Shown piece by piece: positions 25,933 to 35,087 of a stretch of DNA of 64,000 nucleotides. The stretch covers positions 248,001 to 312,000 of the forward strand of contig NZ_FOYI01000002.1 in the NCBI RefSeq assembly GCF_900116005.1, written 5' to 3'. The notes beneath the pieces were generated by a model. That model had not been told where the DNA came from and ran no database searches. It worked only from the letters and a program-made list of their open reading frames with translations. Each line of letters starts with the position of its first letter. Position 1 is the first letter of the stretch. The DNA comes from Poseidonocella sedimentorum. GTDB taxonomy: Bacteria; Pseudomonadota; Alphaproteobacteria; Rhodobacterales; Rhodobacteraceae. The position numbers and the translations under genes were made by a program.

Positions 25933-26832
25933 TCACAGACCGCCAAGCAGTTGGCAAAGTTCATCCAATTGCTCCAAGGACTTATACTGAATCGTCACGC
26001 GGCCCCGCTCCGTCCCCGGATCATGCTCGACAACCACCGACATTTTGAGATTTGCAGTAAGATCCGCCTCCAGAGCGCGGGTATCGGCGTCCTTATCAGG
26101 CGCGATCAACTTGCGTTTCTTGATCCGCGCAGCTGGATTATCTGACCCGGACTTGGCCAGTTTTTCGGCCTGACGTACCGACAGGCCCTCATTGATGATC
26201 TTTTCTGCAAGTTCAACATCTTGCGGGTGGCCAACGAGCGTACGTGCGTGCCCGGCCGACAAGCGCCCTGCGGCCACATGGTCCTGAATCTGTTCCGGCA
26301 GGTTGAGCAACCGCAAAAGGTTCGCAATGTGGCTCCGGCTCTTGCTCAGAGCTTTCGAGATTTGCTCCTGAGTGTGGCCGAAACGATCCATGAGCTGGCG
26401 ATAGCCAAGCGCCTCCTCGATCGCGTTAAGCTCTTCGCGCTGGATGTTCTCGATGATGGCGATCTCAAGCACATCCGAGTCAGACAATTCGCGAACAATG
26501 ACTGGCAGCTCATGCAACTGCGCCAGCTGAGAGGCGCGCCAACGACGCTCACCCGCCACGATCTGGTAGTGATCGGCCTCATCAATTCGGCGCACGATGA
26601 GTGGCTGAATGACGCCCTTCTCACGAATTGAGTCGGCAAGCCCCTGCAATTCATCCTCGGAAAATCGCTTCCGCGGCTGATCCGGATTGGGTTGAATTTG
26701 TTCAATCGGCAGAAAACGCTCGGTCTTCGCGCTAACCCCTGCGCCCGTCGCATCGGAGGCGACATTCACATCTGCCATGAGCGCAGAGAGCCCGCGCCCC
26801 AATCCACGGCTTTTGGATTTCGGGTCCCTCAT
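25933..26832 (-). CDS. parB: Chromosome partitioning protein ParB
   Basis: A 299-residue CTP-dependent DNA clamp. The N-terminal ParA-stimulating motif is RGLGRGLSALMADV. The CTPase/ParB-N domain has IQPNPDQPRKRF, the GERRWRA box and ENIQREELNAIEEA. The HTH TQEQISKALSKSRSHIANLL reads parS, and a C-terminal dimerisation segment follows. It would load at the two perfect parS palindromes found 1.4 and 3.3 kb upstream. It forms one transcript with parA (8-base gap). Confidence 0.97.
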   Translation of the reverse strand: MRDPKSKSRGLGRGLSALMADVNVASDATGAGVSAKTERFLPIEQIQPNPDQPRKRFSEDELQGLADSIREKGVIQPLIVRRIDEADHYQIVAGERRWRASQLAQLHELPVIVRELSDSDVLEIAIIENIQREELNAIEEALGYRQLMDRFGHTQEQISKALSKSRSHIANLLRLLNLPEQIQDHVAAGRLSAGHARTLVGHPQDVELAEKIINEGLSVRQAEKLAKSGSDNPAARIKKRKLIAPDKDADTRALEADLTANLKMSVVVEHDPGTERGRVTIQYKSLEQLDELCQLLGGL

Positions 26833-26840
26833 CGTGAATC

Positions 26841-27626
26841 CTATCCTAACTCTTTGTTTTTATTTATTATTTCGTGTGCAAGCCGCCTGTACGCCTGCGC
26901 GCCGATCGAGTAGCGATCATATTCATGGACGGACAACCCATGCGATGGCGCTTCGCTCAAACGAACGTTCCGTGGAATTCTCGTGTCAAACACCAAATGC
27001 CCCAGGTGCTCCCGCGCGTCTTTCTCGACTTGCAGCGACAGGTTGTTCCGTTTGTCGAACATCGTGAGCACGACACCCTCTATTCGAAGCTCTGGATTCG
27101 CTGTTTCACGGATCTCGCGGATGGTAACCATGAGCTGCGAAAGCCCTTCCAATGCAAAAAACTCTGACTGCAGAGGCACCAAAATCGAATCCGCCGCGAC
27201 AATGGCGTTGATCGTGAGAATATTCAGCGATGGTGGACAATCCAGAAAAATGTATTCGTAGCCTGCCAGCGTTGAAGCGTCCGAGCGAAGGATCTCTTTC
27301 AGCAAAAAGCTGCGATTTTCCTGAGTGACCAGGTCCAGATCGACAGAGCTCAGATCTGTGTTCGACACGATAATGTCGAGATTTTCGACGTCTGTTGGAA
27401 TCGAAGCGGCGTCCAGTCCCACGTCCTCGAAAAGCAGATCGTACGTCGTCAGATCGCGTGATTCCGGATCAGACCCAAGGCCAGTCGAGGCGTTTCCTTG
27501 AGGATCAATATCAATGATCAACGATCTGTGGCCCAGCTCAGCCAGAGCGGCTGCCAGGTTGATCGTCGTCGTTGTCTTGCCCACGCCGCCTTTTTGGTTG
27601 GCGACCGCTATCACTTTGGTTTTCAA
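26841..27626 (-). CDS. parA: Chromosome partitioning ATPase ParA
   Basis: A 261-residue Walker-type ATPase that moves the ParB-parS complex. It has the deviant Walker A KGGVGKTTTTINLAAAL at the N-terminus, the switch I DIDPQGNASTGLG and Walker B FLDCPPSLNILT. The start is TTG at 27626, right after the in-frame rsmG stop, with GTG at 27614 as an alternative; no ATG fits. The gene is visibly AT-richer than most of the window. Confidence 0.96.
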   Translation of the reverse strand: MKTKVIAVANQKGGVGKTTTTINLAAALAELGHRSLIIDIDPQGNASTGLGSDPESRDLTTYDLLFEDVGLDAASIPTDVENLDIIVSNTDLSSVDLDLVTQENRSFLLKEILRSDASTLAGYEYIFLDCPPSLNILTINAIVAADSILVPLQSEFFALEGLSQLMVTIREIRETANPELRIEGVVLTMFDKRNNLSLQVEKDAREHLGHLVFDTRIPRNVRLSEAPSHGLSVHEYDRYSIGAQAYRRLAHEIINKNKELG

Positions 27627-27629
27627 CGG

Positions 27630-28244
27630 TTATTTGTCCTCGATAGGACGGAGATTTCGGATGATCAGAATCCTGCTTTCAGGATCGGTTTTACTTTGCA
27701 CAGCTTCGTAATCAAACAGCCATTGCCGTGATGCAAGCTCTATTTCTTCTTGCCATTTCTTCCCTTTCGGGAACCCAAGTGTAGTCGCTTCGTGAAGGAA
27801 CCTCTCAGACAACCCGAATAGTGCACCCAAAGGCGCTAACGCGCGCGCAGAAACGATGTCGAAAGGTTGCGAAGGTACGTCCTCTATCCGCTGACCGAGA
27901 GCCTGGGCTGGAAGATCCAGTTCGCGGATCGCAGTCCGCAAGAAGGCGCATTTTCTCTTGTCGCTCTCCACGAGGACGACCTTCCCACCGGGATTGAACT
28001 CCTTCGCCAAAATCGCAACGACGATGCCAGGAAATCCGCCGCCAGACCCTATATCGATCCACGACGACCAGTTCCAATCAACTTGATAAACTTGTTTAGA
28101 ATCAATGATATGTCTAGAATAGACATTGGAGAGGTCGCTTTTGGATACAAGATTTATTCTGGGCGACCACTTCCCTACAAGCGATTCAAAACTCCGAAAT
28201 AGCGCCTCTGTTTCACGTGAAACATTCTGCATTTCCATGCTCAC
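27630..28244 (-). CDS. rsmG: 16S rRNA (guanine-N7) methyltransferase RsmG (GidB)
   Basis: A 204-residue SAM-dependent enzyme that methylates G527 of 16S rRNA. The SAM site is DIGSGGGFPGIVVAI (about residues 64-78), with VVLVESDKRKCAFLR and SARALAPL. It probably starts at GTG 28244 or at one of two nearby ATGs (28238, 28232). Codons for NVSRET near the start are formed by a perfect parS palindrome at 28209-28224. It sits between mnmG and parA in the classic gidAB-parAB order. Confidence 0.95.
   Translation of the reverse strand: MSMEMQNVSRETEALFRSFESLVGKWSPRINLVSKSDLSNVYSRHIIDSKQVYQVDWNWSSWIDIGSGGGFPGIVVAILAKEFNPGGKVVLVESDKRKCAFLRTAIRELDLPAQALGQRIEDVPSQPFDIVSARALAPLGALFGLSERFLHEATTLGFPKGKKWQEEIELASRQWLFDYEAVQSKTDPESRILIIRNLRPIEDK
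28209..28224. promoter_or_regulatory. parS centromere site 1 (within rsmG)
   Basis: TGTTTCACGTGAAACA, a perfect 16-bp palindrome identical to the consensus bacterial parS bound by ParB. It lies in the beginning of rsmG, where it is read as part of NVSRET. Confidence 0.93.
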
Positions 28245-30112
28245 GCCCTGCGTTCAGCTTCAGAGCGCTTCAGGACAGAAAGAATCAAAGTCAGCGCAGC
28301 AGGCGTCATCCCTTCGATCCTCGCAGCCTGTCCCAAGGAAGCCGGACGAACGCGGACTAGTTTAGACCGAAGCTCGCCCGAAAGCCCGGATAGAGACTCG
28401 TAGTCCATATCAACAGGGATCGCCCTCTGCTCATCCCGCTGCAGCGCTTCAGCGTCGCGTTCTTGCCGCACAAGATAATTTGCGTACATCGCATCTCTCT
28501 CGATTTGCTCCCGCACATGGAATTCGACCGACGACAACTCTGGCTGAATTTCAAGGAGATCTGGAAACTCGATGTTCGGGAAGGACAGAAGATCAAAGGT
28601 TGACCGCTTCTTCCCATCGTTCTTCACGCTAATACCGAACCCTTCGAGCTCCTTCGAAGAGTAGGTCTTGTTCTCCATTATCGCTTTGGCCGAATCTAGT
28701 TTTGACTTTTTCTCCGCAAATACTGTCCAACGTGCTTCTCCGACACACCCAGCCAGCTTTCCGAATTCAGTAAGCCTCTGATCTGCGTTATCCGCACGCA
28801 ACCTCAAGCGAAACTCAGCTCTAGAGGTGAACATCCTATATGGTTCGGTAACGGAGCGAGTTGTCAAATCATCCAGCATCACGCCGATATAGCTGTCTGA
28901 ACGCAAGAACGTCACAGTATCCTTGCTGAGCGCCTTCGCGGCCGCGTTCAACCCCGAGACCAATCCTTGCGCTGCAGCTTCTTCGTAGCCAGTTGTGCCA
29001 TTGATCTGCCCAGCTAGGAAAAGACCTTCTTGATCCCTATGTTCCAATGTTCGCGATAGGGTTGTAGGATCGCAATAGTCGTACTCAATCGCGTATCCGG
29101 GTTGGATAATTCTAACGTTATCAAGCCCTTTTAGCGTGGAAACGTAGCTTTCCTGGACATCTTCCGGAAGTGACGTGGAGATTCCGTTAGGGTATACAAC
29201 ATCGGTCGAGAGTCCCTCTGGCTCCAAGAACACTTGGTGAGACGATTTATCAGAGAATCTGACGACTTTATCTTCGATGGATGGGCAGTATCGCGGTCCA
29301 GTTCCTTCAATATGACCACCGTACATAGCAGATCTATCGAGATTCTCTCTAATTATGTCGTGAGTCTCACCGTTCGTATGAGTAATTCCGCAAGAAACCT
29401 GTTCTGTTGACGTCGAGTTCGTCAGAAAAGAGAAGTAGGTGGGTACGTCATCCCCAGGCTGAGACTCAAGAACCTCCCAATTTATTGTTTTCCCATCTAA
29501 TCTCGGCGGTGTACCGGTCTTGAGGCGACCCATACGCGGAAAAAGGTCCCGAATTTGCGCAGCGAGGCGAATCGACGATTTGGAGCCCATTCTGCCGGCA
29601 GGATAGCGCTTGTCCCCTATATGCACGGTGCCACCGAGGAATGTCCCAGTGGTCAACACCACGGTTTTGCCATAGATCGCCGCGTTGTCTGTCAAGCCAA
29701 CCCCGACTAGTTTCGAATTTTCAAAGAGAAGTTCAGCAACCTCGCCTTCGAGGAGATCAAGAATCGGCAGCGACTCCATCTCGGTGCGCATATGAGCTTT
29801 ATAGAGAGATCGATCGATCTGCGCCCGAGGTCCTTGCACTGCAGGTCCTTTGCGCCGGTTCAGTAGACGAAATTGAATACCAGCAAGGTCAGCCACTCGG
29901 CCCATAACGCCATCTAGCGCATCAATTTCGCGTACAAGATGACCTTTTCCCAATCCTCCAATTGCTGGATTGCAAGACATTACGCCCAGGTCATCACGCT
30001 TCATTGTAACCAACGCCGTTATTGCACCCATTCGGGTCGCAGCGTGGGCGGCCTCACACCCGGCGTGTCCACCGCCTACGACGATCACATCGTAATGTTT
30101 CACGTGAAACAA
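28241..30112 (-). CDS. mnmG: tRNA uridine-5-carboxymethylaminomethyl modification enzyme MnmG (GidA)
   Basis: A roughly 620-residue FAD enzyme that, with MnmE, builds cmnm5U34 on tRNAs. The FAD-binding motif IVVGGGHAGCEAAHAATRMG is at the N-terminus, followed by CNPAIGGLGKGHLVREIDAL, the GRMGSKSSIRLA block, and the family C-terminal helical domain (IPVDMDYESLSGLSGELR, IEGMTPAALTLIL). The start is TTG at 30112 (reading FHVKHYD), or GTG at 30103, which has AGAGGA 9 bases upstream; either way the start lies in a parS palindrome. Composition is AT-rich (around 50% GC by eye). Confidence 0.96.
   Translation of the reverse strand: MFHVKHYDVIVVGGGHAGCEAAHAATRMGAITALVTMKRDDLGVMSCNPAIGGLGKGHLVREIDALDGVMGRVADLAGIQFRLLNRRKGPAVQGPRAQIDRSLYKAHMRTEMESLPILDLLEGEVAELLFENSKLVGVGLTDNAAIYGKTVVLTTGTFLGGTVHIGDKRYPAGRMGSKSSIRLAAQIRDLFPRMGRLKTGTPPRLDGKTINWEVLESQPGDDVPTYFSFLTNSTSTEQVSCGITHTNGETHDIIRENLDRSAMYGGHIEGTGPRYCPSIEDKVVRFSDKSSHQVFLEPEGLSTDVVYPNGISTSLPEDVQESYVSTLKGLDNVRIIQPGYAIEYDYCDPTTLSRTLEHRDQEGLFLAGQINGTTGYEEAAAQGLVSGLNAAAKALSKDTVTFLRSDSYIGVMLDDLTTRSVTEPYRMFTSRAEFRLRLRADNADQRLTEFGKLAGCVGEARWTVFAEKKSKLDSAKAIMENKTYSSKELEGFGISVKNDGKKRSTFDLLSFPNIEFPDLLEIQPELSSVEFHVREQIERDAMYANYLVRQERDAEALQRDEQRAIPVDMDYESLSGLSGELRSKLVRVRPASLGQAARIEGMTPAALTLILSVLKRSEAERRA
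30096..30111. promoter_or_regulatory. parS centromere site 2 (at the mnmG start)
   Basis: A second perfect copy of TGTTTCACGTGAAACA, 1.9 kb from the first. It covers the mnmG initiation region and is read as FHVKH in that frame. It is 3.2 kb from the proposed origin. Confidence 0.93.
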
Positions 30113-30116
30113 TCCT

Positions 30117-31403
30117 CTATTTACCCATGCAAAACGTGGCGAATATCTTTCCCAACACGTCTTCCACGCCGATTTTGCCTACAACGGCATCAAGCTCATG
30201 CACTGCTCTACGTAGCTCTTCTGCCGCGAGATCAACGTAGTCTTCCCCCAGCTCTATGTGAACTGCAGCCTGCAAGATACACCTTTTCGCTTCAACCAAA
30301 GAACGGCGGTGTCTTTCATTGCTGATGCTACCTTTTGAATTTACTGAATTTTTCAGATACTCATGAATTGCGTGAAGTAGATCTGAAACGCCTTCACCGG
30401 TCACGCCAGATAGGCCAAACCCGGGGTAGCTCGCCAGATCTCGTTTCTGTCCAACAAAAGCAGTTCCGTCTTCAATTCGTAAATCCCCGGAGTCGGAACT
30501 CTCAACCAAATGGATTCGAATGTCAGCCCGCTCCGCACGCTGCTTGGCGAGATCTACACCCTTCGCCTCTATCGGGTCGTCCGTCTCTCGCATCCCTGCG
30601 GTATCGAGAAAAGTCACCGGAAGTCCGAACAAATCCATCCGCACCTCGATGACATCTCTCGTCGTCCCGGCAATTTCGGACGTGATTGCGGCTTCCCTAC
30701 CGGCAATGTGGTTCAGCAATGTGGATTTACCACTATTGGGCCGCCCAATGATGGCGATCTCAAACCCACTACGTACCCGCTCCGCGACTTGGCTTCCCTC
30801 GATTTCGCGCTCAAAGGTTCGAGCAAGTTCAGCCAGACGCCGCACGATATCCTCAGTCATTCCGGGAGGAAGCTCTTCGTCCGAGAAATCGATCATGGCT
30901 TCCACAAGCGACATCGCGGTAAGGAGCCCTTCACGCCATTTTACCACTGAGTCCGCCAAGCGCCCCGACAGTGTCTCGATCGCCTGGCTGTGCTGGGCCA
31001 CTGTCTCCGCTTCGATCAGATCCGCAAGCGCTTCAACTTGAGTCAGGTCTAGCCGGTCATTCAGCAAGGCCCGTCGGGTGAATTCACCGGCCAAGGCATG
31101 GCGCACGCCGCTAATACTGCTGAGCTCGGTTTCAAGAAGCGATACGACAGCCTGACTGCCATGAGTTTGAAATTCAACAACATTTTCACCGGTGAAGCTG
31201 TTCCCTTCCGGAAAACAGATCACGATCCCCTCATCGATGAGCGTACCATCGCGTTTTCTGAACCGCCGCAAAGCTGCCTTGTGAGTCGCCGGCAATGAAC
31301 CGCACACAGCTTCCGCGGCGCGAAACGCCTCAGGGCCTGAAACCCGAATGACAGCGACGCCGGCTTTACCCGGCGCCGTTGATAGCGCGAAAATCGTGTC
31401 CAA
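30117..31403 (-). CDS. mnmE: tRNA modification GTPase MnmE (TrmE)
   Basis: A 428-residue partner of MnmG. The N-terminal tetrahydrofolate-binding domain is followed by a helical domain interrupted by a G domain: P-loop GRPNSGKSTLLNHI, G2 TSEIAGTTRD and G3 FLDTAGMRETDDP. The C-terminus ends in the catalytic CMGK, equivalent to the family's C-[I/L]-G-K. The start is TTG at 31403 with GAAGGA 8 bases upstream. It lies 20 bases after rho. Confidence 0.95.
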   Translation of the reverse strand: MDTIFALSTAPGKAGVAVIRVSGPEAFRAAEAVCGSLPATHKAALRRFRKRDGTLIDEGIVICFPEGNSFTGENVVEFQTHGSQAVVSLLETELSSISGVRHALAGEFTRRALLNDRLDLTQVEALADLIEAETVAQHSQAIETLSGRLADSVVKWREGLLTAMSLVEAMIDFSDEELPPGMTEDIVRRLAELARTFEREIEGSQVAERVRSGFEIAIIGRPNSGKSTLLNHIAGREAAITSEIAGTTRDVIEVRMDLFGLPVTFLDTAGMRETDDPIEAKGVDLAKQRAERADIRIHLVESSDSGDLRIEDGTAFVGQKRDLASYPGFGLSGVTGEGVSDLLHAIHEYLKNSVNSKGSISNERHRRSLVEAKRCILQAAVHIELGEDYVDLAAEELRRAVHELDAVVGKIGVEDVLGKIFATFCMGK

Positions 31404-31423
31404 AGGGTCAGTCCTTCAGGAAC

Positions 31424-32695
31424 CTAGGTATTCATTGAATCGAAGAACTCGGAGTTTGTCTTGGTCTGCTTCAACTTGGAAAGCAGGAATTCAATCGCGT
31501 CGGTCGTCCCCATGGGGTTGAGAATCCTGCGCAACACGAAGGTCTTGGCAAGATCGCCTTTGTCGACGAGAAGATCTTCCTTCCGCGTCCCGGATTTGAG
31601 GATGTCGATCGCCGGGAAGACCCGCTTATCGGCAATCTTGCGATCAAGAACGAGCTCGCTGTTGCCAGTCCCTTTGAATTCCTCAAAGATGACCTCGTCC
31701 ATCCGGCTGCCCGTATCGATCAGCGCCGTCGCGATGATCGTCAGGCTGCCGCCTTCTTCGATATTCCGCGCCGCGCCGAAGAACCGCTTGGGCCGCTGAA
31801 GGGCGTTTGCATCGACACCACCGGTCAGAACTTTACCACTCGATGGAACGACAGTGTTGAACGCCCTACCAAGTCTTGTGATTGAGTCGAGAAGAATAAC
31901 AACATCTCGTTTATGCTCAACCAACCGCTTGGCCTTCTCGATCACCATCTCACTCACCGCAACGTGCCGCGTCGCCGGTTCGTCAAAGGTCGAGGAGATG
32001 ACCTCCCCCTTTACGCTCCGTTGCATATCGGTGACCTCTTCCGGCCGCTCGTCGATCAGCAGGACGATCAGATAGCACTCCGGATGGTTCTTCTCGATCG
32101 AATTGGCGATGTTCTGCAGGATGACGGTTTTACCCGTCCGCGGCGGCGCGACGATAAGGCTCCGCTGCCCCTTCCCGATCGGCGCCACCAGATCGATGAC
32201 GCGCGCGGAGCGATCCTTGATGGTCGGATCCTCGACCTCCATCGAGAGCCGCTCATCCGGGTAAAGAGGCGTAAGGTTGTCAAAGGCGATCTTGTGCCGA
32301 GCCTTTTCAGGATCCTCGAAGTTGATCTTGGTGACATCCGTGAGCGCAAAATACCGTTCGCTCTCATCGGGTGCTTTCATCTGCCCCTCGACCGTGTCAC
32401 CGGTCCGCAGCGAAAACTGCCGGATCATGTCTGGCGAGACGTAGATATCGTCCGGACCCGAGAGATAGTTGGCTTCGGGCGAGCGCAAAAACCCGAACCC
32501 GTCCTGCAAGACCTCTAGGACCCCGTCGCCATAGACTGTCCAGCCCTCTTCGGCGCGTTCCTTGAGGATCGAGAACATCATCTCGCCCTTGCGCATGGTC
32601 GAGGCGTTTTCGATCTCGAGCTCTTCGGCCATAGACAAAAGATCCTTCGGGCTCTTCGCCTTAAGGTCGGCCAGATTGAGACTCTCTTCGCTCAT
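31424..32695 (-). CDS. rho: Transcription termination factor Rho
   Basis: A 423-residue RNA helicase. The N-terminal Rho-N and cold-shock RNA-binding domains ([37 protein letters not shown]) precede the RecA-like motor with Walker [13 protein letters not shown], Walker [17 protein letters not shown] and the Q/R loops ([12 protein letters not shown]). ATG at 32695 matches the usual MSEE start. The order hemJ-rho-mnmE-mnmG-rsmG-parA-parB is the conserved left side of the alphaproteobacterial origin. Confidence 0.97.
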
Positions 32696-32816
32696 CACAT
32701 ATATACCTTGCTCACCGCATCTCAGACGCAGGCGCCACGTTGTCTTTCGGAAAAATCAGCTCGGACGAGCCTGATCCGTCAGTATTTCAAGGCGGGGTCG
32801 GGAGTCAAGCGAGCCG

Positions 32817-33275
32817 TCAGAAGCGGACGATGACCGAAAATATGATGATCACCAACAAAACTGTCGGGACCTCGTTCATGATCCGATAGCGCCGGCCGGT
32901 CAGCTGGTTGGTGCCCTGCGAAAACTGATAAACTCTTCGGCCCAACCAGTCGTGGAACGCGGTCATCGAGAGTATCGCGAAACCCTTGGTATAGGGCCAA
33001 ATCGCCCCCCAATCGACGGCCCCGGGCGTGAACACCATGATCAACCCAAAGGTCCAACTGGCCATCATCGCGGGCTGCATGATCACCCTGAAGAGCTTGC
33101 GCTCCATGGTCTGGAAGAGCGCGTCTGTCTCTGATCCGCTCTCAACCTTCTCGACATGATAGACAAAGAGCCGCGGCAGATAGAACAACCCCGCCATCCA
33201 GGCAATGACCGAGATCACGTGCAGAGACTTGACCCATGGGTAGGCGGTGAGGAGCAGATCGAACATACCGCTCAT
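32817..33275 (-). CDS. hemJ: Protoporphyrinogen IX oxidase HemJ
   Basis: A 152-residue membrane protein with four predicted helices. It matches the HemJ (UPF0093) family: KSLHVISVIAWMAGLFYLPRLFVYH, with the conserved histidines of SLHV and VYH, and MTAFHDWLGRRVYQF. HemJ converts protoporphyrinogen IX to protoporphyrin IX in heme synthesis and uses heme itself as cofactor. ATG at 33275; MFDLLL three codons later is possible. It is the last leftward gene before the proposed origin. Confidence 0.93.
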   Translation of the reverse strand: MSGMFDLLLTAYPWVKSLHVISVIAWMAGLFYLPRLFVYHVEKVESGSETDALFQTMERKLFRVIMQPAMMASWTFGLIMVFTPGAVDWGAIWPYTKGFAILSMTAFHDWLGRRVYQFSQGTNQLTGRRYRIMNEVPTVLLVIIIFSVIVRF

Positions 33276-33645
33276 CTATAATAATAAAGATAAGAGTTAA
33301 GAATGATGTTTTTGTAGTAAGGCCGGAATCTGGGGATCAAATCTTATCCCCGAAGTTGGACAGCGTATCGACGTGATGTTGATAACTCTTTGGAGAATCT
33401 GAGCAACACTCTTAAAAACACATGATTTTCAAAGCGTAGACGAGAATCATGGCTTGTTAAGAACTCGCAACGTGACCAGCTGCCACCTGGTTGTTCACAG
33501 CAGCGTTCTGTCCTTTCCCACAGAGGTACAACAGCTCTCGTCGTGACCTGGGGAACAGTGAAAATGGGGTGGTCTGCCTGAAAGCCCCGGGTTATCCGAT
33601 CTTACCAACCGCAATCCCGCAGGGCTGACCCCAATGTTATCCACA
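33276..33645. other. putative chromosomal replication origin (oriC)
   Basis: A 358-bp non-coding stretch between divergent hemJ and maf. An AT-rich block (33274-33320: tataataataaagataagag...) resembles a DNA unwinding element. DnaA-box-like 9-mers: a perfect TTATCCACA at 33637-33645 (running into maf), TTATCAACA on the minus strand at 33377-33385 and TTGTTCACA at 33491-33499 (each one mismatch to TTATNCACA), plus weaker ones near 33344, 33514 and 33592. Three GANTC methylation sites lie at 33326, 33395 and 33444. Genes on both sides read away from it, and the flanking gene order matches origins in this class. Confidence 0.78.
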
Positions 33646-34245
33646 CCAAAGCCTCGACTGACGCTGGCCTCCGGATCGCAAATCCGGCGCCTTCTGCTGG
33701 AAAACGCAGGGTTCGATATCGACGCTATACCCGCCATGGTTGACGAAACCTTACTGCGCGCGGCGATGGAGGCCGAAAATGCACCGCCTCGGGACATTGC
33801 CGACGGGCTTGCCGAGCACAAGGCGCGCAAAATCGCCGCGAAACATGGGCAAAGCCCGGTCCTTGGGTGTGACCAGGTGCTGGCCTGCGGCGGTGTGCTC
33901 TTCAGCAAACCCGAATCCCCAGAAGCTTTGCGGGAGGATCTTGCGAAGCTCTCCGGCCAGACTCATCAGCTCTTTTCCGCCGCCGTTCTTTACGAAAACG
34001 GCGAGCCGGTCTGGCGGCATGTGGGCATCGCGCGGCTGACAATGCGCAGCCTGAGCGCCGGGTTCATCGAAGATTACGTCGCCCGGAACTGGGACAGCAT
34101 CCGCCATTCGGTTGGCGGCTATAAACTGGAAGAGGAGGGCGTCCGCCTCTTCACGTCGATCCAGGGCGACTATTTTACCATCCTTGGCCTGCCGCTGCTC
34201 GATCTGATCAATTTCCTGACCCTGAGGGGAGACCTGCCCACATGA
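33634..34245 (+). CDS. maf: Maf-family nucleotide pyrophosphatase
   Basis: A 203-residue house-cleaning NTP pyrophosphatase. Family motifs are LTLASGSQIRRLLLENAGF at the N-terminus, LAEHKARKIAAKHG, the catalytic-base region VLGCDQVLACGG, and SIRHSVGGYKLEEEGVRLF. ATG at 33634 is immediately followed by a perfect DnaA box, so the first codons encode LSTPK. It is the first rightward gene beside the origin and overlaps aroE by 4 bases. Confidence 0.93.
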   Translation: MLSTPKPRLTLASGSQIRRLLLENAGFDIDAIPAMVDETLLRAAMEAENAPPRDIADGLAEHKARKIAAKHGQSPVLGCDQVLACGGVLFSKPESPEALREDLAKLSGQTHQLFSAAVLYENGEPVWRHVGIARLTMRSLSAGFIEDYVARNWDSIRHSVGGYKLEEEGVRLFTSIQGDYFTILGLPLLDLINFLTLRGDLPT

Positions 34246-35087
34246 TACACGCATCCAACCGCGCGGGCGGGCGTCCTCTCGCCGGGGTCATCGGCGATCC
34301 CATCGCGCATAGCAAATCCCCGCGCATGCATCGTTTCTGGCTCGATCAGTTGGGGATTGATGGGCATTATGTGCCGCTGCATGTGAAGGACGGTGATCTG
34401 GAAGCCGTGTTGCGGGCCATGCCGAAAATGGGGTTCGTGGGCACAAACGTGACCATTCCGCACAAGGAAACCGCGATCAAACTCGCCGATGAGATCAGCT
34501 CGGCCGCCCGGGCCATCGGCGCGGCGAACACGCTGACATTTGGCGCGGACGGCCGAATTCACGCAGACAATACCGATGCTTACGGATTTTTGGCCAACCT
34601 GCGCCAGCAGGCCCCTGGCTGGGCGCCCGATGGGCCGGCCTTGCTGCTCGGCGCCGGTGGGGCCGCGCGCGCGGTCATCGCAGCGCTACAGGAGGCAGGG
34701 GTCGGCGATATCCGCCTCTGCAACCGCACGCGCGCTCGCGCCGAAGACCTCGCCTCGGCTTTTGGCGCCGGTGTGAGCGTTCTGCCATGGGAGGACACAG
34801 GAGACGCCGTTGGTGATTGTTCGCTTCTCGTCAACACCACCTCGCTCGGAATGGTGGGGAAGCCGAGTCTTGACCTTGCGCTCGACAAGCTCTCTGCCAG
34901 CACGATCGTCTCCGATCTCGTCTATGTTCCGTTGGACACCGGACTCCTGCGCGCCGCGAAGGACAAGGGTTGCACCACGGTCGACGGGTTGGGGATGCTC
35001 CTGCATCAGGGCGTGCCGGGTTTCGAGCGGTGGTTCGGGGCGCGCCCCGAGGTGACACCCGCATTGCGCGAGGCGCTTTTGGCATGA
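34242..35087 (+). CDS. aroE: Shikimate dehydrogenase (NADP+)
   Basis: A 281-residue enzyme of aromatic amino-acid synthesis. The N-terminal shikimate site shows GVIGDPIAHSKSPRMHRFWL and GTNVTIPHKETAI (catalytic Lys), with NTLTF and the Asp in HADNTDAYGF. The Rossmann domain has LLGAGGAARAVIAAL and CNRTRARAEDLA. VDGLGMLLHQGVPGFERWFG ends the protein. ATGA overlaps at both ends couple it to maf and coaE. Confidence 0.96.
   Translation: MIHASNRAGGRPLAGVIGDPIAHSKSPRMHRFWLDQLGIDGHYVPLHVKDGDLEAVLRAMPKMGFVGTNVTIPHKETAIKLADEISSAARAIGAANTLTFGADGRIHADNTDAYGFLANLRQQAPGWAPDGPALLLGAGGAARAVIAALQEAGVGDIRLCNRTRARAEDLASAFGAGVSVLPWEDTGDAVGDCSLLVNTTSLGMVGKPSLDLALDKLSASTIVSDLVYVPLDTGLLRAAKDKGCTTVDGLGMLLHQGVPGFERWFGARPEVTPALREALLA

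Follow-up and report, generated by a model that had tools for sequence, protein, structure and literature searches.

Together, the 358-bp intergenic gap between hemJ and maf and the opening codons of maf very probably form the chromosomal origin of replication (oriC). An initial annotation of the window (the whole 64,000-nucleotide stretch of DNA analysed here) had proposed this, and our analysis supports it: the GC skew of the contig, the parS sites, the clustering of DnaA boxes and the conservation of the region in 76 relatives all agree. The locus combines the elements of a DnaA-type oriC, namely a box cluster beyond chance, a skew minimum on its own contig, an AT-rich element, and parS and parAB nearby. 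The likely replication origin of this draft genome is thereby fixed, and the resulting site map can be tested in other Rhodobacterales.

The window lies on contig C19, which is 512,478 bp long and belongs to a draft genome of 3.56 Mb in 27 contigs; positions refer to the window unless prefixed with C19. Open reading frames and Pfam matches confirmed that the gap is free of genes over 358 bp (33276–33633) and that, as the annotation had described, hemJ and maf are divergent, both pointing outward from it:

33276–33645, no strand: putative oriC, the hemJ–maf intergenic gap plus the first codons of maf
32817–33275, minus strand: hemJ, left flank (PF03653, 1.8e-56; TIGR00701 above cut-off)
33634–34245, plus strand: maf-like gene, right flank (PF02545, 1.7e-41, above cut-off)

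The product of 33634–34245 was also matched by the NCBIfam Maf models, with scores below the model cut-offs. The rho-mnmE-mnmG-rsmG-parAB block to the left of the gap and the aroE-coaE-dnaQ block to the right were both found where they had been placed. We identified rho, rsmG, parB, aroE and dnaQ by Pfam, and mnmE, mnmG, parA and coaE from their ORF translations, MnmE and CoaE also by tblastn matches in relatives. The Caulobacter neighbourhood is shared in part: hemE is located at C19:320968, 39 kb to the right of the gap, and ppsR (PF03618, COG1806) had no match across the draft genome. The dnaA gene starts at C19:188854, 92 kb to the left. The region from parB through parA, rsmG, mnmG and mnmE to rho (26000–33000) has a GC content of 0.51–0.56, compared with about 0.62–0.68 in most windows on either side, and its GC skew is negative. 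The spacing between hemJ and rho is about 4 kb in one relative (L100) and about 130 bp in most others.

Loci of relatives were found by means of HemJ, and the best 80 of 165 were used. In 76 of these 80, maf lies divergently across a gap from hemJ; the other four (L057, L093, L098 and L099) were left out for having no Maf match, and in these 35–615 bp separate HemJ from the locus end. The 76 relatives and the window gave a set of 77 gaps of 334–424 bp, each extended by 30 bases of maf, from which 68 representatives were obtained by removing 9 gaps with at least 65% identity to a kept one. Positions were counted with a slack of 1 to 4 bases. The 77 gaps, derived from the best 80 of 165 relatives, contain 244 DnaA boxes at no more than one mismatch, as against 9.0 ± 3.4 in shuffles; 76 of the 77 have at least one such near-perfect box, and there are about three per gap. 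The boxes of the window, with the number of representatives that have a box at the same place, are as follows:

33331–33339, minus strand: weak DnaA box TGATCCCCA, the one nearest the AT-rich tract; differing at one base from the Caulobacter G-box TGATCCACA and at two from TTATCCACA; 45 of 68 at no more than two mismatches
33344–33352 (alignment place about 33345), plus strand: weak DnaA box TTATCCCCG, two mismatches; 17 of 68
33377–33385, minus strand: DnaA box TTATCAACA, one mismatch; 30 of 68
33389–33397 (alignment place about 33388), minus strand: weak DnaA box TTCTCCAAA, two mismatches; 21 of 68
33491–33499, plus strand: weak DnaA box TTGTTCACA, two mismatches; 24 of 68
33514–33522, plus strand: weak DnaA box TTTCCCACA, two mismatches; 20 of 68
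33637–33645, plus strand: perfect DnaA box TTATCCACA, in maf codons 2–4 (ATG TTA TCC ACA); 34 of 68

The initial annotation had given the sequence and position of the perfect box correctly but had placed it in the gap, whereas it lies inside the maf reading frame. It was also right about the one-mismatch box on the minus strand at 33377–33385; 33491–33499, which it took for a second box of this quality, differs from TTATCCACA at two bases. The two-mismatch boxes at 33331 (minus), 33344 (plus), 33389 (minus) and 33514 (plus) had been overlooked. In all, the gap and the first maf codons contain seven boxes at no more than two mismatches, three on the minus and four on the plus strand, and only two of the window's boxes are within one mismatch. 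At least two boxes of the latter class, one of them perfect, occurred in 0.05% of 2000 dinucleotide shuffles of the gap plus 30 maf bases. Over C19:1–512000 the gap is the top DnaA-box cluster, with a score of 10 (seven boxes), the next unrelated stretch scoring 6, and the hemJ–maf gap is likewise the densest cluster in all three relatives read over 400 kb. The perfect box TTATCCACA has eight copies in the whole draft genome, one of them at the start of maf; TTATNCACA occurs 9 times, compared with 14 for the reversed control, and is therefore not commoner.

Eleven box places are fixed among the 68 representatives, the most frequent being 33331 (minus) in 45, 33356 (plus) and 33455 (minus) in 39 each, 33322 (minus) in 37, 33625 (plus) in 35 and 33637 (plus) in 34, where all such per-site fractions depend on the alignment, the gaps being about 40% identical (median) to that of the window. 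At the 33322, 33356, 33455 and 33625 places the window has no recognisable box (3–6 mismatches). Among the 45 representatives that have the 33331 box, 30 carry A at its second base, 10 carry G and 5 carry T; at the ten other box sites taken together, T stands there in 246 of 296 cases and another base in 50. A change from T to G at this base defines the Caulobacter G-box TGATCCACA, which has lower affinity (PMC4285127 and PMC4468827, in their accessible text).

Three further elements lie within the gap:

33276–33301, no strand: AT-rich tract, probable DNA-unwinding element; its A-rich columns are kept in the 77-gap alignment
33302–33320, no strand: conserved GATGATG-type block between the AT-rich tract and the first boxes; consensus GATGATGTTGATGTAGGG in the alignment of relatives, and present in the same-genus genome G062
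33427–33439, plus strand: IHF-like site TTTCAAAGCGTAG, two mismatches to WATCAANNNNTTR

The AT-rich left end of the gap had already been noted and was borne out. The AT fraction of the whole gap is 0.528, a value reached by 0.24% of windows of the same size, and the tract, judged by composition alone, would qualify as the unwinding element of a DnaA-type oriC. At the 33427 place, 56 of the 68 representatives have an IHF-like site at no more than two mismatches and 30 at no more than one, against a mean of 1.6 and a maximum of 14 at control positions. We base the IHF-like site on these relatives, because the copy in the window is unremarkable, two further stretches of the same gap matching equally well; the window's 33427 site does not fit the published IHF pattern WATCAN5WTR. 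Over whole gaps, IHF matches were about twice as frequent in the 77-gap set as in shuffles (84 versus 41.9 at no more than one mismatch; 26 versus 13.1 for WATCAN5WTR), and the genome encodes both IHF subunits (TIGR00988 and TIGR00987, above cut-off). The features held in place across the relatives are thus the A-rich tract beside hemJ, the weak box T[A/G]ATCCACA and the IHF-like site, of which the window's own weak-box and IHF-like copies are poor versions. G062 has TGATCCACA itself at the 33331 place, an IHF-like site TTTCAACGGGTTA with one mismatch, better than that of the window, and ATGTTATCCACA at the start of maf.

An origin at this location might be controlled as in Caulobacter, with CtrA blocking initiation and CcrM methylation of GANTC timing it, a scheme that concerns control and is compatible with the locus being the origin. 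The three GANTC sites that the initial annotation had reported in the gap are indeed present (33326, 33395 and 33444), GANTC is denser in the relatives' gaps than over their whole loci (2.73 versus 1.98 per kb), and perfect TTAA-N7-TTAA sites exceed shuffles over the 77 gaps, counted on both strands (12 versus 1.9, maximum 8; in 6 of the 77). At no more than one mismatch, the corresponding counts are 78 versus 47.0 ± 8.9 (maximum 64), in 26 of the 77 gaps. We nevertheless consider such control unlikely. The gap of the window has no TTAA-N7-TTAA site even at one mismatch, as had been stated for the full CtrA box, and its GANTC content is near chance, with three sites compared with about 1.6 in shuffles (6 versus 3.25 with both strands counted). 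The GANTC argument made earlier stands as to the sites and is weak as evidence for an origin: 34 of the 76 relatives' gaps have no GANTC, that of G062 has one only, and over the 77 gaps the count is below that of shuffles (180 versus 280.9). Neither GANTC nor CtrA sites are conserved in position across the aligned gaps, and the accessible text of PMC8116508 reports that the Rhodobacterales studied tolerate the loss of CtrA. GANTC was accordingly rejected as an origin mark, and CtrA sites, which are not position-locked and are absent from the window's gap, were rejected as a shared origin feature. Given the excess of TTAA-N7-TTAA over shuffles in the gap set, some of these origins may be acted on by CtrA. 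The 64-kb window as a whole strongly avoids GANTC (91 sites versus 353 in dinucleotide shuffles, a figure that may count both strands of the palindrome and would then be halved).

The hemJ–maf gap also lies close to features that mark origins on a larger scale. A skew minimum elsewhere had been named as the observation that would speak against an origin here; on C19, the one contig of the 27 that was profiled, the cumulative GC skew has its minimum at 34332, which is in aroE, just past maf, and 877 bp from the middle of the gap. Within 50 kb of the gap, the GC skew turns from −0.019 on the left side to +0.043 on the right. Among the relatives, one of the three tested agrees: in a Sulfitobacter genome the minimum is 175 bp from the middle of the hemJ–maf gap, in Litoreibacter arenae, read over 400 kb, it falls 66 kb away from it, and Defluviimonas WL0050 (L036) shows no clear skew switch over 400 kb, with a minimum 38 kb off the gap. 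Two parS sites are located on the side of parAB:

28209–28224, no strand: parS site, perfect
30096–30111, no strand: parS site, perfect

These are the only parS sites at no more than two mismatches in the 3.56-Mb draft, and both are 3–5 kb to the left of the gap (less than 5.5 kb). Sites at no more than one mismatch occur in 196 of 199 family genomes, this genome included, the three without being G019, G052 and G060; most family genomes have two, and G062 has one. The polarity of GGGNAGGG, which we take to be KOPS, flips at the gap, with 0 forward and 2 reverse copies within 25 kb on the left and 9 and 0 on the right; when the range is widened to 200 kb, the forward/reverse counts are 11/20 on the left and 21/9 on the right. 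This polarity is weaker in the relatives, with 5/4 on the right within 25 kb in Sulfitobacter, 0/0 and 0/2 near the gap in Litoreibacter, and 0/3 and 0/2 in Defluviimonas.

Alternatively, the gap could be merely a divergent promoter region serving its two flanking genes, possibly under the control of DnaA, with replication starting elsewhere. The genes are divergent, and a DnaA box touches the start codon of maf in 28 of the 77 gaps; the last A of the box is the A of the in-frame ATG in 26, and in two, the window and L041, the box directly follows the ATG. A role as promoter only is nevertheless very improbable in view of the skew minimum, the parS sites, the roughly three near-perfect boxes per gap in the relatives and the IHF-like site. 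The region may combine both functions, promoter and origin. In many bacteria, oriC adjoins dnaA. An origin near dnaA or at another chromosomal site, for which one could cite this common arrangement, the skew minima lying off the gap in two of the three relatives, and a skew of our own drawn from one contig in 27, is the least probable reading of all, and its dnaA version was rejected because C19:186500–191000, around dnaA, has no DnaA box at no more than one mismatch, the cumulative skew at that place reaches about half the depth seen at the gap, and parS is found near the gap only.

The hemJ–maf gap, then, almost certainly serves as oriC, and for its working we propose DnaA arms, IHF-type bending, an A-rich opening site and segregation by ParB and parS. 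In this scheme, which starts from the sites, their positions and conservation, the skew and parS, the steps of binding, bending, opening, loading and segregation are modelled on Escherichia coli and Caulobacter. DnaA would bind along two arms of boxes, most of them weak: one near the AT-rich tract composed mainly of minus-strand boxes, and an opposite one of plus-strand boxes ending with the strong box at the start of maf. IHF or a similar protein would bend the DNA that separates the two arms, near 33427, the bend would allow DnaA-ATP to fill the weak boxes and open the A-rich tract beside hemJ, and the helicase would be loaded there. ParB on the two parS sites, 3–5 kb to the left, would then segregate the new origins.

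From the aligned sequences, we tentatively suggest a possible common architecture of Rhodobacterales origins, which we hold a little less probable than not: the box by the unwinding tract would be deliberately weak, the IHF-like site fixed, and CtrA and GANTC sites optional and unfixed, and the origin would reach into the start of maf, which could couple the expression of maf to the loading of DnaA. The idea of a deliberately weak box comes from the second base, which is A or G in 40 of 45 representatives at 33331, compared with 50 of 296 non-T bases at the ten other sites. If a conserved weak box and an IHF-like site without fixed CtrA sites are indeed the rule, this would point to low-affinity DnaA loading as a more widespread feature of Alphaproteobacteria than control by CtrA.

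The oriC of Escherichia coli has an AT-rich unwinding side, two arms of boxes with an IHF site between them and, at the opposite end, a strong box. The region described here has the same general layout with different neighbouring genes, and the likeness described is one of layout; a role of IHF at the Escherichia coli origin is described in the accessible part of PMC4285127. The basal unwinding system (PMC8287927, as far as its available text goes) also has DnaA boxes beside an AT-rich tract. Its DnaA-trio rule, in our own coding and with the strand direction inferred, held in 61 of the 77 gaps, compared with 51 on the wrong side and 65 on the other strand, and we make no DnaA-trio claim, as the rule does not discriminate the correct side or strand from the wrong one.

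The likeness to Cori of Caulobacter crescentus consists in an AT-rich tract and may extend to a box resembling the G-box TGATCCACA and to a single IHF site (PMC4285127, PMC4468827 and PMC1914354, from the portions available). The G-box would correspond, judged by the sequence letters, to TGATCCCCA in the window and to TGATCCACA in G062. Cori is flanked by hemE and COG1806, whereas here hemE is 39 kb away and COG1806 (ppsR) had no match in the draft genome, and the TTAA-N7-TTAA sites of Cori have no counterpart in the window's gap at one mismatch or fewer. Within the family, Ori-Finder origins were assigned in 101 Rhodobacteraceae with nearness to parAB as one criterion, eight being unassignable (PMC6699656, accessible text). 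According to the available text of the Ketogulonicigenium vulgare Hbe602 paper (PMC4793288), which refers to DoriC, an oriC adjoining maf is conserved in Rhodobacteraceae. Our region resembles these origins in being a gap directly upstream of maf that contains DnaA boxes; we found no difference, and that text is silent on IHF sites and weak boxes. Because this maf-adjacent location has already been published for Rhodobacteraceae (PMC4793288), our origin call is an ordinary one, correct and usefully refined in some details of the layout.
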